This document shows, piece by piece, positions 32,580-38,658 of a DNA stretch of 39,449 nucleotides. The position numbers and the translations under genes are program-made. The notes under the pieces were generated by a model. That model did no database searches. It was not told where the DNA came from and worked only from the letters and a program-made list of their open reading frames with translations. This stretch comes from Planctomycetia bacterium (GTDB lineage: Bacteria; Planctomycetota; UBA1135; UBA2386): positions 1 through 39,449 of the forward strand of contig SXPK01000073.1 of NCBI GenBank assembly GCA_005776365.1, read 5' to 3'. Numbering within the stretch: the stretch's first letter is position 1; the number at the start of each line of letters is the position of its first letter.

Positions 32580-33278
32580 CTACTTGCCGGTGCTTGGTTG
32601 CGCCGGCTTTTGGACAGTGATGTTGTCCGGCCGGAACTTCGTCTCGTAGTCGGTCGGGTGCACTTCGGGCACCGCCAGCATCTCGCGAATGCGATCGAAA
32701 CCGGAAAACACGTAGTAATCGCCCGGGTTCGACGTGCCCTGAAGGCGCGCGCGCCCGGAAACGAGGCCGACGAACAGCATGTTGCCGTCGTCGACGACGA
32801 AGAGCGCAGCCCCCGCTGGCAATTCGCAGCCCGGATCGCGCAGCACGTCGCCCTGCACGCCTGAAACCGCGGCCAAGCCGACGTCGACGGTCATGAGGTT
32901 GGTGCCGTCGGGGGTCCACATCGCCAGGATTTCATCGTCTCGCGTCACGTTGCGGTCGAGCACGCGCACGCTCTGCGTCTTGAGGTCGATGTCCGCTCGG
33001 CAGAATCCAGCGCTGGAGGGGCGCAAGACCCCGTCCTCGATCATCGGCGTCGGGCCCAAGAAGTAGTGGACGCGGCAAGGTCCGTCTTGTGCGGTGCGGC
33101 CGAGAGTGAGGATGCCGAATTCAGTCGTGGCGCCAAACTCGACGCCGCCGGTCGTCTCGACCAACGCGACAGGCTTGGTTCGGTCGATCGTGTCGTATCC
33201 CGAGAAGAGCCATCCGCTGCATGAGCTCAGCAACAAGGCGGCGGCAATCGTGTGGATGCGGGCACAGGTGGGGTTCAC
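32580..33278 (-). CDS. Predicted lipoprotein of unknown function
   Basis: A 232-aa protein. It begins MNPTCARIHTIAAALLLSSC, a signal sequence with lipobox LSSC, so Cys20 would be lipid-modified and the protein attached to a membrane outside the cytoplasm. The rest is beta-rich, with segments such as FGATTEFGILTLGR, EILAMWTPDGTNLMTVDVG, CELPAGAALFVVDDGNMLFVGLVSG and NPGDYYVFSGFDRIREML. I do not recognise a family. It converges on trkA (17 nt) and follows the PNP-like gene (86 nt) in the same direction. Its role is unknown. Confidence 0.65.
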   Translation of the reverse strand: MNPTCARIHTIAAALLLSSCSGWLFSGYDTIDRTKPVALVETTGGVEFGATTEFGILTLGRTAQDGPCRVHYFLGPTPMIEDGVLRPSSAGFCRADIDLKTQSVRVLDRNVTRDDEILAMWTPDGTNLMTVDVGLAAVSGVQGDVLRDPGCELPAGAALFVVDDGNMLFVGLVSGRARLQGTSNPGDYYVFSGFDRIREMLAVPEVHPTDYETKFRPDNITVQKPAQPSTGK

Positions 33279-33364: not shown

Positions 33365-34198
33365 TCAGTCGAGCAGCTTCTGGCCTTCGGCCACGACGCC
33401 GACCAGCACCGAGGCGATCCGCGGCGCTGCGAGTTCTGCGGCCTCGATCATCGCTTCGATCGACGCTTCGGCGGGCGGTCGCTGCGGCAAGGCATGCTGC
33501 GTGACGCCGACCAAGGCGAGGACCTGGAAGCCAGCATGAACTGCAGAGATGACTTCGGGCACCATCGACATGCCGACGAGGTCGGCGCCGATCTGACGCA
33601 AGAAGCGGTATTCGGCGCGGGTGGGCATCGACGGTCCTGGCACCGCTGCGAGCACGCCCGGAAGGCACGGCACTCCGGCGCGCATCGCGACATCGCGAGC
33701 GACGGCGAGCCAGCGTGGCGAATACGCCTCGCTCATGTCCGGGAAGGTCGGTCCCCAATGCTCGTCGCTCTTGCTGCGCAGCGGTTGGGCGCCGGTCAGG
33801 TTGATGTGGTCCTCGATCAAGGCGATCGAGCCCGGCTCGATCTGCGGCGACAGACTCGCCGCGCCGGCCGTGACGATGAGAGTCTCGCAACCGAGTGCGC
33901 GCAGCAGTCGCACGAGCAACGTGACCTCGACTCCGGTCTCCAGCGTCATGATCGGCGCGTCAGCGACCGCGACCGGCGCGCCTTCGAGCAGGCCGAGCAA
34001 CAACGGCGAAGCGAGGCCTACGCCAGGCGGCAGATCTTCGGCGTGGACCGAGACCTTTTCTCGCAGTTGGCCTGCGATCGACGCGTGGCCGCTGCCCAGG
34101 AGCAGCGCCATGCGCGGGCGATGCGGACAACGCTCGAGGATCTTCTGCGCCGCTTCGCGCAAGCGGGACGTCTTGCCGCCGGGTGCTGGTCCGACCAT
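33365..34198 (-). CDS. PNP-fold protein with altered catalytic residues
   Basis: A 277-aa protein of the trimeric purine nucleoside phosphorylase type. Family features are LLLGSGHAS (32-40, phosphate loop), VPGPSMPTRAEYRFLRQIGADLVGMSMVPEV and VISAVHAGFQVLAL. However, key positions differ from active PNPs. The RxHxYEG stretch is replaced by ADAPIMTLETG (79-89), NAAGG by TAGAASL (110-116), FET by MPT (191-193, losing the purine-contacting Glu) and TN by TQ (233-234). Normal enzymes cleave inosine or guanosine with phosphate. This one may bind a different nucleoside or be non-catalytic. It lies 57 nt after the YggU-family gene in the same direction. Confidence 0.65.
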   Translation of the reverse strand: MVGPAPGGKTSRLREAAQKILERCPHRPRMALLLGSGHASIAGQLREKVSVHAEDLPPGVGLASPLLLGLLEGAPVAVADAPIMTLETGVEVTLLVRLLRALGCETLIVTAGAASLSPQIEPGSIALIEDHINLTGAQPLRSKSDEHWGPTFPDMSEAYSPRWLAVARDVAMRAGVPCLPGVLAAVPGPSMPTRAEYRFLRQIGADLVGMSMVPEVISAVHAGFQVLALVGVTQHALPQRPPAEASIEAMIEAAELAAPRIASVLVGVVAEGQKLLD

Positions 34199-34255: not shown

Positions 34256-34558
34256 TCAGCGGCCAATCGCCGCATGAATTCTTGCCCGCGCTTCGTCCAC
34301 ATCGAGACCGAGCACGGTCACCGACTTATTGGGCGCGGAATGACCGGCGACGACCGCGATGTCGCGGCGGTTGACGAGAAACGCAGTTGCCAGGATCTCG
34401 CAGATCCGGTCGTTGGCCTTCCCGTCCTCTGGCGGTGCCGCGACGCACACCTTCAGTGCATCGCCGAGGATCCCTGCGATGCGGTCCCGACTGCTGCCAG
34501 GAACTGCCTTGATGGCGATCCGCACGCCGCCGTCGGTCGGAAGGATCCGCAGGCTCAC
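34256..34558 (-). CDS. YggU/DUF167-family protein
   Basis: A 100-aa protein. VRIAIKAVPGSSRDRIAG near the start and LKVCVAAPPEDGKANDRICEILA in the middle are the DUF167 signature, followed by VVAGHSAPNKSVTVLG. The structure of this family is a small alpha/beta fold; its function is not established. The start GTG 34558 overlaps the stop of the kinase gene by 4 nt (GTGA), so its translation probably depends on the kinase mRNA. Upstream in-frame sequence is out-of-frame kinase sequence and is not used. Confidence 0.85.
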   Translation of the reverse strand: MSLRILPTDGGVRIAIKAVPGSSRDRIAGILGDALKVCVAAPPEDGKANDRICEILATAFLVNRRDIAVVAGHSAPNKSVTVLGLDVDEARARIHAAIGR

Positions 34559-37143
34559 GGCATCCCGGTCACGCAGAAACTGTGTGCGTGCTCGGCAAGC
34601 AGTCGGTCGACGTGGTTGGCGGCGGCGAGATTGCGGCGTTCGGACAACGCGCGTAGACCCGCAGCCAGCATCCGACTGGCCAGCGCCTCGTCGCGGACGC
34701 CTTGGGCCCAAGGCGCATCAGCGGGCAGTTGGCCGAGCAGCACGTCGAAGACGGTCACCCCCAAGGCATAGCCGCTGGCTCCGGTGCCCGATTGGTCGTC
34801 GCCCGATTTGAGGCTGCGCAAGAACGCGGACGCCGCTCGTTGATGTGCGAGGATCGCTGCAAACGCGAGGGTCGCGGCACGACCGCCTGCTGCGGTGGCC
34901 GGTTCGGGCGCCTTCGCAAGCAAGGCCTCCCATTGCTCGAGCGAGACGTCGGCGAGCGCGACAACGGTCTCCTTCAACGGCTTCTTCGTCGTGTCGGCGA
35001 ACACCAGTTGGCCTTCGGCAACGCGCCACCCGGTCCAGGTCAGGGGCGTTTCCGAGCCGGGGAGGGCGAACTGGATGCTGCCCTGGGGCAAGGATTGTCG
35101 CAACCCATCGAGGTAGGCGGCGGCCCGTTGCAGCGACTCCGCGAAGCCAGCAGCGCGCACGCCCATCGGCGAGTCCTTGGCCGACGCAGCCAGTTGCAGC
35201 AACGATTGTGCAGCCGATGCGAAATCGAGGCGCGCCATCGCTTCGCCGACGCCGCCTGGTTGATGGAGCAGCGTGGCGTAGGACCGCCACTTCGCCGTCG
35301 TCGCATCGTGTTCGAGCGTGTCGGCGTCCAATAGCGCCGCGGACTTCGCGGCCTGCAGCGCGGCGCGACCACTCACGATCGCATCGGGCCAGCCCGTTGC
35401 GTCCACGACCGCGCCGAGCGATCGCGCTGCGTTGCGCAGCGCAGTTGGGTCGCCGATCTTGCGCGCATCGTCGACCTGCGACCGCAGGGTTGCGATGTGA
35501 GCCGTGGCCGCTGCCAATATCTGCTCTCGCAGTCGTGCGAGTCCTTCGTCGAAGGCCGCGATGTCGGCGGCCGGCGTTGGCTTGGCCGCTTCGATCAGCG
35601 CCAGTGCGCGCGGCATGTCAGCGCTTGCTTGCGCGGTTGCGACTTCGGCCGCGATCGCGGCGATCGCGGCTGCGGCCTTGTTGCGCGCTGCTTCTGCGTT
35701 GGCGAGTTGCAGCGCGAGTGCAGCGCGCGTCGAGGCTGCAAGTTCGCTCGCTTCGGCGGCGGCACTCGTGCCCTTGTGCGCCGCGGCGATGCCATCGAGC
35801 GTGCTCGCGAATGCCTCGCCCGTCCCGGCCTCCAGGCGAGCGCGCAGCAGTGCGATCGTCCCGCGGTGCTCGCGCGCCGCGGCTTCGAGTTCTTTGTTGG
35901 CAGCGGCGAGGCGCGCGGCTTCGGGGTTGTCGATGTATTCGGTCTTCTCGATGACGTCCTTTGGCTTGGTGACCGCCCAGTAGATCGCGCCCGACGCGAG
36001 CAAAGCACCGGCGGCTGCAAGGCCGATCCACAGGCCCTTCTTGGCTGGCGGCTGCAGCAGCGCATGCGCCGCTTCGAGCAGGTCGTTCGCGCTCTGGTAG
36101 CGATCGCCCGGCTCCTTCTGCATCAGCTTCTGGATGATCGCTGAAACCTCGGGCGGGACGGCTGAGTCGGCCTTGTGCGCAGGCTCCGCGTCCTCTTTCA
36201 CCTGCGCCCGCAGGATGTCCTTGACCGTCTGTCCCTTGAACGGCGTTTTGCCGGTGACGAGCCGATAGAACGTGCACCCGAGCGCATACAAGTCGGTGCG
36301 GTGGTCGAGCGGCTTGCGCAGCACCTGTTCGGGTGCCATGAAGTGCGGAGTGCCCGCGACCTGCTCCTCGCCGGTGTCCTCGGTGAACGCGAGCCCGAGG
36401 TCTGCGATCTTCACGTTGCCGTGTTGGTCGAGCATCAAGTTGTCGGGCTTGATGTCGCGATGGACGATGCGCAAGGACTCGGCGTAGGCGAGGCCGGATG
36501 CTGCGTCAGCGATGACCTGCAAGGCGCGCTCGACCGGCATCTTGCCGTTCTTCTTGAGCCACGCTTCGAGGGAGCCGTGATGCATCAGCTCCATCGCGTA
36601 GTAGTAGGTGCCGCCGTCTTGTTCGACGTCGAATACGTGGACGACGTTGGGGTGCGAGAGCTTGGCTGCGGCGCGTGCCTCGGCGACAAACTTGGCGACG
36701 AAGGCCGGGTCCGACGTGCGCCTCGTGTCGAGCACCTTGAGCGCGACTTGCCGCTTCAGGCTCGTTTGTTCGGCGAGGTAGACCTTGCCCATGCCGCCAC
36801 GACCCAGTTCACCCAGGATCTGGAAACCGCGGATCGACAGTCCGCGTGACGGCGCGATCGCGCGCAGGCCGTAGACGATGCGGGAGGCGCCGAGCTCGAT
36901 GGTGTCGCCATCATGAAGCGGAGCTGCTTCGACCTCGGCGCCGTTCACGCGCAGGCCAGGGGCCAGCGCCTTGATGCCAAATCCCTGGTCGCGCAGCGCC
37001 TTGACGACTGCATGTTGCTCCGCGATGCCGGGCTCCGACAAACGCAAGGCGCAACCCGAGCCGCTGCCGATGGTGGTGGGTTGGTTGCGGTCGAGTTCGA
37101 CCGACATGCCCGACATGGGGCCGGAATCGACAAAGAGGCGCAA
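34555..37143 (-). CDS. FHA-domain Ser/Thr protein kinase with membrane anchor and long outer helical region
   Basis: An 862-aa transmembrane kinase. Residues 1-95 form an FHA-like domain (TIGSGSGCALRLSEPGIAEQHAVV, then VNGAEVE and GDTIELG). The kinase spans about 105-362: glycine loop LGRGGMGKVYLA (113-124), Lys136 in VALK, catalytic Asp230 in HRDIKPDN, DLG in place of DFG (248-250), GTPHFMAPE, and DLYALGC. One membrane helix follows (370-391, WIGLAAAGALLASGAIYWAV). The outer 470 residues are Ala-rich helices, coiled-coil-prone to about 600. FHA-like phosphopeptide binding suggests self-recognition. The start is a TTG at 37143, required to include the first FHA strand; an in-frame ATG lies 9 codons downstream. 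Partner substrates unknown. Followed by a YggU gene at a GTGA overlap. Confidence 0.85.
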   Translation of the reverse strand: MRLFVDSGPMSGMSVELDRNQPTTIGSGSGCALRLSEPGIAEQHAVVKALRDQGFGIKALAPGLRVNGAEVEAAPLHDGDTIELGASRIVYGLRAIAPSRGLSIRGFQILGELGRGGMGKVYLAEQTSLKRQVALKVLDTRRTSDPAFVAKFVAEARAAAKLSHPNVVHVFDVEQDGGTYYYAMELMHHGSLEAWLKKNGKMPVERALQVIADAASGLAYAESLRIVHRDIKPDNLMLDQHGNVKIADLGLAFTEDTGEEQVAGTPHFMAPEQVLRKPLDHRTDLYALGCTFYRLVTGKTPFKGQTVKDILRAQVKEDAEPAHKADSAVPPEVSAIIQKLMQKEPGDRYQSANDLLEAAHALLQPPAKKGLWIGLAAAGALLASGAIYWAVTKPKDVIEKTEYIDNPEAARLAAANKELEAAAREHRGTIALLRARLEAGTGEAFASTLDGIAAAHKGTSAAAEASELAASTRAALALQLANAEAARNKAAAAIAAIAAEVATAQASADMPRALALIEAAKPTPAADIAAFDEGLARLREQILAAATAHIATLRSQVDDARKIGDPTALRNAARSLGAVVDATGWPDAIVSGRAALQAAKSAALLDADTLEHDATTAKWRSYATLLHQPGGVGEAMARLDFASAAQSLLQLAASAKDSPMGVRAAGFAESLQRAAAYLDGLRQSLPQGSIQFALPGSETPLTWTGWRVAEGQLVFADTTKKPLKETVVALADVSLEQWEALLAKAPEPATAAGGRAATLAFAAILAHQRAASAFLRSLKSGDDQSGTGASGYALGVTVFDVLLGQLPADAPWAQGVRDEALASRMLAAGLRALSERRNLAAANHVDRLLAEHAHSFCVTGMP

Positions 37144-37227: not shown

Positions 37228-38658
37228 TCAGGCTGTGGTCACGCGGACTTCGACGCAGCGGCGCGTATTCAGCATCAGCCGCGCTGGTTCGGCGATGTCG
37301 GCGCCTGGGACCCAGAGGATCCGGTCGTTGGCATCGACCAGCAGTGGGAGGCGGTCGCGATCGAAGCGCGGCACGTGGCGGGCCAATAGGAATCGGCGAA
37401 GTTCCTGTTCGGCGCGGGCGCCAAGCGGCTGGATCCGATCGCCGGGTCGGCGAGCGCGAATGCGCCAAGGCAGCGGCGCATTGCGCGGGTCGATCAGCGC
37501 GCGGAAGGGACCGGCTTCGCTCGGGCTCGGCGATAGCGGTGGCAGCGGATGCTCGATCGCCTGCACGTGCCACTCCGTGGCGCCAAACCGTTGCCGGCCC
37601 AGGTCCCACTGCAGCAGCGCTCCATCGCCAACGGGGGGAGCGCCAAGGCGATCGGGATCGACCAATAGCAGCCCCTTGCGCGTGCGCTCGACGAGCAAAC
37701 CGCCGCGCCCGCACAGGCGAGTGCCATCGGGCTTGTCGAGCAGCACGAGCGCGCGCTCGATCCAACGCTGCAACGGCGCTTCGCCCCGTGCATGCAAGTC
37801 AGCATGAGCGATGCGCAGCGCTTCGCCAACGAAGGTCAAGTCGTCTTTCCCGACGCCGCGCAGATCGAGATGCAGGCAGTGCGAAGAACGCCGGATCGAA
37901 CGCTCGGCCAAGACGCGACGCGCTTGCGCGTCGAGGATCTCGGTTGCAGCGCGCGCCGTCGTCGCGACCGTCATCAGCGCGACATCGAGGCCGACACCCA
38001 GTTCCTTCTGCAACCGCGGGATCGTCTCCATCCGCAGGCGGTTCCTGGTGTAGCTGACGTCGGCGTTGGTGGAATCCTGGTAGACCGGAATGCCGACCCG
38101 AGCCAAGAGGCCGCGCAGTGTGTTGCGGCGGACCTTCAGGAAGGGCCGGACGAGCAGGCAGCGAGAAGCTTCTCCGCACAACCATCGCGCCTCGGGGATC
38201 CCCGCGAGCCCGCGCGGGCCAGTGCCGCGCAGCAACCGGAACAGCACGGTTTCCAAGTTGTCATCGGCATGGTGGCCGGTGACGACCGCACCGGCGCCGA
38301 TCGCACGGGCGATGTCGGAAATCGCCGCGTAGCGGGCCTGCCGCATGCGGTCTTCGCTCGGACGGTCGCCGAGCGATTCGAGACGACGCAAGTGGAAGGG
38401 GACTTCGAGTCGCTCCGCCAGTGCGCGAACGTGCTCGACGTTCTCGGCGCTGTCCGCGCGCACCCCGTGATCGACGTGGCAGAAGGCCAACGGACCAGTC
38501 AGTCGGTCCTCGGCCCGCAATCGCTCCAGGACGTAGGCCAGCGCGGTGCTGTCGGCGCCACCGGAGATGGCGGCGAGCAGCGGGCGTCCACCGACGAGGT
38601 TTTCGTAGCGGACTAGGCAACGCGAGGTCGCGTCGAGGAGGCGGCGCAGACTGTCCAT
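37228..38658 (-). CDS. tilS: tRNA(Ile)-lysidine synthase
   Basis: A 476-aa PP-loop ATPase that converts C34 of the CAU-anticodon tRNA-Ile to lysidine, so that it reads AUA. The PP-loop is ISGGADST (31-38). CHVDHGVRADS, VVTGHHADDNLETVLFRLLRG and YQDSTNADVSYTRNRLR are N-domain marks. The substrate-binding C-terminal domain has WRIRARRPGDRIQPLG and ELRRFLLARHVPRFDRDRLPLLVD..ILWVPG. Length is typical for the two-domain form. It is the first gene of a leftward set with the kinase (84 nt away) and is divergent from the GAPDH gene. Confidence 0.95.
   Translation of the reverse strand: MDSLRRLLDATSRCLVRYENLVGGRPLLAAISGGADSTALAYVLERLRAEDRLTGPLAFCHVDHGVRADSAENVEHVRALAERLEVPFHLRRLESLGDRPSEDRMRQARYAAISDIARAIGAGAVVTGHHADDNLETVLFRLLRGTGPRGLAGIPEARWLCGEASRCLLVRPFLKVRRNTLRGLLARVGIPVYQDSTNADVSYTRNRLRMETIPRLQKELGVGLDVALMTVATTARAATEILDAQARRVLAERSIRRSSHCLHLDLRGVGKDDLTFVGEALRIAHADLHARGEAPLQRWIERALVLLDKPDGTRLCGRGGLLVERTRKGLLLVDPDRLGAPPVGDGALLQWDLGRQRFGATEWHVQAIEHPLPPLSPSPSEAGPFRALIDPRNAPLPWRIRARRPGDRIQPLGARAEQELRRFLLARHVPRFDRDRLPLLVDANDRILWVPGADIAEPARLMLNTRRCVEVRVTTA

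Follow-up and report, generated by a model that had tools for sequence, protein, structure and literature searches.

A conserved PNP-fold protein of Planctomycetota that lacks the residues of phosphorolysis

The locus and its PNP-fold gene

The window (the whole stretch of 39,449 nucleotides analysed here, contig SXPK01000073.1 of a Planctomycetia bacterium) was found to carry a gene for a PNP-fold protein without phosphorolysis residues. The label PNPL is used for such altered PNP homologues. The window's family is called f1; f2, f3 and f5 to f8 are working family codes, and G- and L-numbers are working labels of genomes and loci, respectively. The genes of the locus were as follows.

33365..34198, minus strand: PNPL, 277 aa, ATG start (Pfam, alignments, structure model)
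34256..34549, minus strand: DUF167/YggU-family gene directly upstream of PNPL, part of the conserved cluster, start codon uncertain (TIGR00251, 78.6 bits, cut-off 35)
34555..37143, minus strand: Ser/Thr protein kinase with an N-terminal FHA domain, part of the conserved cluster (locus comparison)
37228..38658, minus strand: tilS-like gene (PP-loop and TilS_C), part of the conserved cluster (locus comparison)
32580..33278, minus strand: 232-aa protein without a Pfam match at E 0.001, at the usual place of purN (locus comparison)

Within PNPL, the following features were assigned by alignment.

34085..34096, minus strand: phosphate loop GSGH, residues 35-38; Ser36 (human S33) kept, His38 in place of human Leu35
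33932..33964, minus strand: loop ADAPIMTLETG, residues 79-89; Pro82 for Arg84, Met84 for His86
33851..33871, minus strand: TAGAASL, residues 110-116, in place of TNAAGGL
33605..33637, minus strand: GPSMPTRAEYR, residues 188-198; Pro192 for Glu201
33551..33577, minus strand: VGMSMVPEV, residues 208-216; Met219 and Ser220 kept
33497..33502, minus strand: Thr233-Gln234; Gln for Asn243

A PNP_UDP_1 domain was found in the window protein (Pfam PF01048, E 1.2e-33), and its best solved relative was the Planctopirus limnophila PNP 4m1e (E 4.3e-50). The trimeric-PNP pattern that a sequence-only reading had seen in the phosphate loop, GPSMPTRAEYR and VGMSMVPEV was borne out by PF01048 and by alignment to human PNP and 4m1e. 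Residue numbers of active-site positions follow human PNP, with a reference sequence identical to PDB 7zsl over 289 of 289 residues. Two more PNP_UDP_1-family matches were present in the window's genome (G000:C57:1-546 and G000:C227:15137-15679).

Loss of the catalytic residues

The same reading had described changes in four PNP motifs (RxHxYEG, NAAGG, FET and TN), and all four were real on alignment to human PNP and 4m1e. In the loop ADAPIMTLETG, Arg84, His86 and Tyr88 were replaced by Pro, Met and Leu, respectively, and in TAGAASL the residues N115, A116, G118 and G119 were replaced by A, G, A and S. F200 and E201 had become M and P in GPSMPTRAEY, and N243 had become Q in TQ. Beyond these sites, His64 was gone and His257 was replaced by Ile; Ser33, Glu89, Phe159, Thr202, Met219, Ser220 and Thr242 were retained. 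No intact catalytic His, Glu or Asn was placed in the pocket by the alignment, which showed Met86, Pro201 and Gln243 instead. Misalignment was rejected as the source of the residue loss, since the motifs were gap-free in most relatives; a two-residue loop deletion and Leu88 were confined to the three rows of the window's genus.

According to the available text of PMC9916683, catalysis requires the hydrogen bond between Glu201 and N1, and a Glu89-His86-phosphate triad is proposed; in that of PMC6128611, Asn243 sets the 6-oxo preference and Asp at this position gives adenosine activity. Because Arg84, His86, Glu201 and Asn243 are gone, and Glu89 alone of the described residues is kept, ordinary phosphorolysis by PNPL is very unlikely, and we strongly infer from these replacements that PNP chemistry has been lost.

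An AlphaFold2 model of the window protein had a mean pLDDT of 87.5 and a pTM of 0.88, and its weakest parts besides the N-terminus were residues 81-90 (the loop of the lost Arg and His) and 141-150. Structure prediction supported retention of the PNP fold, the model matching 4m1e best, with a Foldseek TM of 0.86 and a VIA-align Z of 35.5 (rmsd 2.0, 263 residues), although the model leans on the PNP fold because its alignment contained seven PNPL and 18 canonical relatives. The 50 matches listed per structure search were PNPs or xanthosine phosphorylases by title, and 3lba was a hypoxanthine-bound protein.

Conservation of the replacements in two families

When 151 genomes drawn from the window's order were searched at the protein level, close PNPL relatives (45-86% identity) were found in 32 of 34 f1 genomes and in all eight f6 genomes, i.e. 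in 40/42. Both f1 genomes without PNPL (G094 and G100) also had no clear PurN, which may mean that the assemblies have a gap there or that PNPL and PurN were lost together. A profile search across 392 genomes of the phylum gave matches with E <1e-120 solely in seven genomes (four f1, three f6), and the next-best match, at 1.4e-85, was a canonical PNP. L049, of f3, was a divergent member, and L052, of f7, diverged further.

The replacements were conserved in all 40 PNPL rows of f1 and f6, which include one cut by a contig end (L041). Arg84 and Glu201 were each replaced by Pro in 40/40 rows, position 86 was other than His in 40/40, and position 243 was Gln in 38 and Glu in one of 39. Since Pro84, Pro201 and non-His86 are common to all rows, the changes are not due to chance.

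For contrast, 96 other PNPs were taken, 73 from the contig scan (among the matches listed) and 23 from the phylum. Among the matches listed, Arg84 and His86 were kept in 96/96, position 201 was Glu in 92 and Met in three of 95, position 243 was Asn in 61 and Asp in 34 of 95, and position 257 of canonical PNPs was often other than His. These sites differ in diagnostic weight: 201, 243 and 257 vary naturally, whereas Arg84 and His86 do not. The second PNPs fetched from f1 and f6 genomes had the canonical set in 23/23 cases (21/21 from PNPL carriers).

Glu201 was replaced by Met, with Arg84 and His86 kept, in PNPs of L128 (Evansella), L135 (Aliibacillus) and L147 (Salipaludibacillus). A second PNP-like match lay directly downstream in L128 and in the planctomycete locus L228.

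Automatic naming of PNPL proteins

The window protein scored 218.2 bits against NCBIfam NF006054, a PNP equivalog model with a cut-off of 218 (a margin of 0.2 bit), and fell below the cut-offs of TIGR01697 (173 vs 197.1) and TIGR01700 (154.5 vs 293.35). L010 and L030 were above NF006054 and narrowly above TIGR01697, L038 was above NF006054 and 0.6 bit short of TIGR01697, and L049, L052 and the f8 member L254 were below both. Because NF006054 accepted four of the four f1/f6 PNPL proteins scanned despite their absent catalytic residues, automatic names are unsafe in the PNPL clade, and false reaction assignment is likely in metabolic models of these bacteria. Identity as MTAP/MTIP was rejected, with 49.6 vs 274.85 bits for TIGR01694 and 38.1 vs 223 for NF006599.

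The narrow pass at NF006054, together with the natural variants at 201 (Met) and 243 (Asp), would fit an ordinary PNP in which other residues do the work, so that the apparent loss would reflect misalignment or a variant of specificity. The gap-free motif alignment, the joint absence of Arg84, His86, Glu201 and Asn243, and the intact PNP in the same genomes make this explanation highly improbable.

Selective constraint and composition of the pocket

In six PNPL pairs, three of them from one genome trio, dN/dS was 0.10-0.16; the two pairs of intact type B PNP gave 0.146 and 0.451, respectively. Mean identity over 210 genome pairs was 61.1% for PNPL compared to 61.8% for type B PNP, and PNPL was the more conserved of the two in 86/210 pairs. 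PNPL is under about as much constraint as the intact type B PNP, and its dN/dS of 0.10-0.16 and its divergence, near that of an intact PNP, show that it is not in decay. A completeness of 65%, in 283 contigs, for the genome of the window might suit a decaying pseudogene or a sequencing error in a single MAG, but PNPL was carried by 40/42 genomes of two families, with no internal stops among the matches listed. Together with the dN/dS values, this conservation rules out decay or error, whose probability is practically nil.

Switch columns were defined as at least 90% conserved in PNPL and at least 80% in type A, with differing residues. Eight were found (type A to PNPL): 35 L to H, 83 G to A, 84 R to P, 118 G to A, 119 G to S, 201 E to P, 243 D to Q and 260 I to M. 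The new His at 35, beside the kept Ser33, was invariant in the 40 f1/f6 rows, and the catalytic His86 was mostly Ala in the clade (Met in the window). Five of the eight columns were on the active-site list for calf PNP in the available text of PMC9916683 (p 1.1e-4 for 268 columns, 9.5e-4 for the 70 conserved columns). Seven of eight lay in the motif windows, which were set post hoc (p 7.3e-6; 2.8e-4 among conserved columns), and four of eight were on a strict active-site list (p 0.001; 0.012 among conserved columns). All of these p-values ignore the relatedness of rows and are optimistic.

Conservation of the pocket compared to the rest of the protein was 0.84/0.74 in f1 and f6 PNPL (pocket 0.88 in f1 and 0.87 in f6), 0.88/0.65 in type A and 0.97/0.72 in type B. 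The PNPL pocket is conserved, but it exceeds the rest by a narrower margin than the pocket of intact PNPs does. Of the trimer-interface residues, Phe159 and Glu205 were present in 40/40 f1/f6 PNPL proteins, Asn137 in 36/40 and Asn145 in 8/40.

Gene neighbourhood and purN

Upstream of PNPL, a DUF167/YggU match was found in 18/39 testable loci, the kinase in 21/30 and tilS in 19/27. Downstream, purN was present on the same strand within about 1.1 kb in 35 of 38 testable loci (37 from f1 and f6, and L049), and the three loci without it were those of the window and of its two congeners. PurN was found on other contigs in the genome of the window and in that of one congener, G051, so purN adjacency is not obligatory. 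The 32580..33278 protein occurred only in the window's genus (three loci) among the loci compared. The gap between PNPL and purN was -4 to +14 bases in 15 of the 24 pairs with both ORFs called, starts being uncertain, and purN was retained in 9/9 loci without the upstream kinase (of 30 testable).

Around canonical type A genes of planctomycetes, purN was adjacent in one of 20 loci (L231); four others had it on the same strand at a distance of up to 5 kb. L231 had the full YggS-kinase-DUF167-PNP-PurN order around an intact type A PNP, which indicates that the slot is ancestral and that part of the arrangement was there before the loss. In six loci, from f5 (four), f2 (one) and f7 (one, G007), PurN was present but the slot had no PNP-like match; PurN thus does not need the slot protein everywhere.

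Both PurN motifs (N-x-H-P and the Asp of D-x-G), whose residues we take to be E. coli N106, H108 and D144, passed a pattern check in 23/25 slot ORFs, and a suspected loss of the catalytic Asp from the slot PurN was rejected on this basis. Of the two that failed, L044 reads INIHP on inspection and L092 is cut by the locus end. The slot PurN of L089 scored 139.3 against the TIGR00639 cut-off of 150.1, so its name denotes similarity below the curated line.

Phylogeny and the slot proteins of f8

In the tree without the two longest rows, PNPL formed one group (98/96), and one branch parted 31 canonical rows from 26 slot rows (100/93; 99/98 with the two long rows included). Type B PNPs formed a separate clade (100/99). 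A tree that placed PNPL with type A and f8 apart was not rejected (p-AU 0.256), and in a quick tree the long row L052 was placed elsewhere and PNPL without L049 had a support of 14. The simplest reading of these trees would be a single loss event for all slot proteins.

PNPL shares with 4m1e and type A PNPs the framework of GTG, GPxLxTRAEY and VGMSTVPEV, and type A occurs in the same slot (L231), but type A had Arg84, His86, Glu201 and Asp243 in 23/23 rows. The type B PNP (e.g. G000:C78, locus L056) is of the same superfamily and of similar length and divergence; unlike PNPL, it has a canonical active site and belongs to a separate clade.

In 14 f8 loci (L249-L260, L267 and L268), a PNP-like ORF was present in the slot in 14/14 and adjoined PurN in 13/14, the contig ending first in L258. 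The f8, type A and type B sets were chosen from matches, not at random, and the f8 set is not a census. The f8 slot proteins resemble PNPL in lying beside PurN in the same slot and on the same side of the branch that splits off canonical PNPs, but they are far more diverged. Arg84 and His86 were absent from all 14 and Ser220 was lost in 13/14; conservation was 0.52 in the pocket, 0.61 in the rest and 0.74 at the trimer interface (12 rows, two near-duplicates dropped). With Ser220 mostly lost and the pocket less conserved than the rest, a pocket function does not extend over the whole order, and f8 indicates that the pocket is not always needed.

Proposed role of PNPL

The sequence-only reading had claimed a retained fold with a lost phosphorolysis site and, from these, a new substrate or ligand-binding role. 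The first part is upheld by the sequences, their clade-wide conservation and the AlphaFold match. The second is favoured as a proposal for f1 and f6, because the pocket there has new residues that are themselves conserved. The new His and Gln among them point to a ligand, and the close linkage to purN points to a role with PurN.

We therefore tentatively regard PNPL as a PurN-linked, non-phosphorolytic, PNP-derived partner or regulator with a rebuilt pocket (probability roughly 0.4). A planctomycete trimeric PNP would be the ancestor of PNPL, phosphorolysis would have been lost early in one order, and the intact second PNP would cover purine phosphorolysis in the same genomes. The fold would have been kept, probably as a trimer, with the phosphate-loop hydroxyls of Ser33 and Ser220; the catalytic Arg, His, Glu and Asn have given way to Pro, mostly Ala, Pro and Gln, respectively, and the invariant His has arisen beside Ser33. 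The rebuilt pocket may then bind a different ligand without phosphorolysis, and PNPL may act on PurN (glycinamide-ribonucleotide formyltransferase) as partner or regulator. A bolder version appears unlikely: across the order, an ancient PNP would have become a subunit of GAR formyltransferase (PurN) that senses a ligand or activates the enzyme, its salvage pocket rebuilt so as to read a metabolite of the purine pathway and to tune de novo synthesis, and some lineages (f8) would have kept the scaffold alone.

A less probable but serious rival is that PNPL is purely a scaffold or pseudoenzyme, a trimer that serves PurN, DUF167 or the kinase as a structural partner and has its pocket filled in. 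This explanation fits f8 as well, where the trimer interface is more conserved and the pocket less, and it agrees with the retention of Phe159, Glu205 and Asn137 in f1 and f6 and with a site filled by small or hydrophobic residues. However, the f1/f6 pocket is more conserved than the rest of the protein and has an invariant His and a near-invariant Gln, and interface Asn145 is mostly missing.

A second serious rival, likewise less probable, is a re-specialised enzyme acting on a non-purine or non-nucleoside substrate, with a pocket of His38, Gln234, Ser36 and Ser211 in window numbering (and Tyr or Phe at 88 in most relatives). The conserved polar newcomers His35 (40/40) and Gln243 (38/39) would be hard to explain in a dead pocket, and the pocket conservation of f1 and f6 is near that of type A, though below that of type B. 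Both positive phosphate ligands are gone, no acid replaces Glu201 or Asn243, and the f8 relatives do not keep the residue set, all of which speak against such an enzyme.

PNPL is a clear natural case of hallmark catalytic residues lost in an ancestral slot with an intact paralogue for the old job, which makes the steps from enzyme to new role testable. If the link to PurN is real, PNPL would be an unrecognised partner of de novo purine synthesis. We know of no link between plant vegetative or bark storage proteins and PurN. These proteins are, in the available text of PMC3751785, PNP-like paralogs without evidence of a salvage role, as PNPL is, but they have a storage function in plants, and the likeness is one of description. 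A case is known elsewhere of a pseudoenzyme making a biosynthetic step possible, according to the available text of PMC12727527. Among the top-ranked matches of a literature search of partial coverage, a weak indication, there was no paper on the PNPL subfamily.

Other contexts of the PNPL-purN pair

In part of f1 (L081-L085, L089, L093, L095-L097 and L103), the PNPL-purN pair was found in another context. Several of these loci had a NadR-like AAA ATPase or a Lon-N-type protein upstream, and several had a sugar (ribose-type) ABC transporter downstream, these names being read from sequence.
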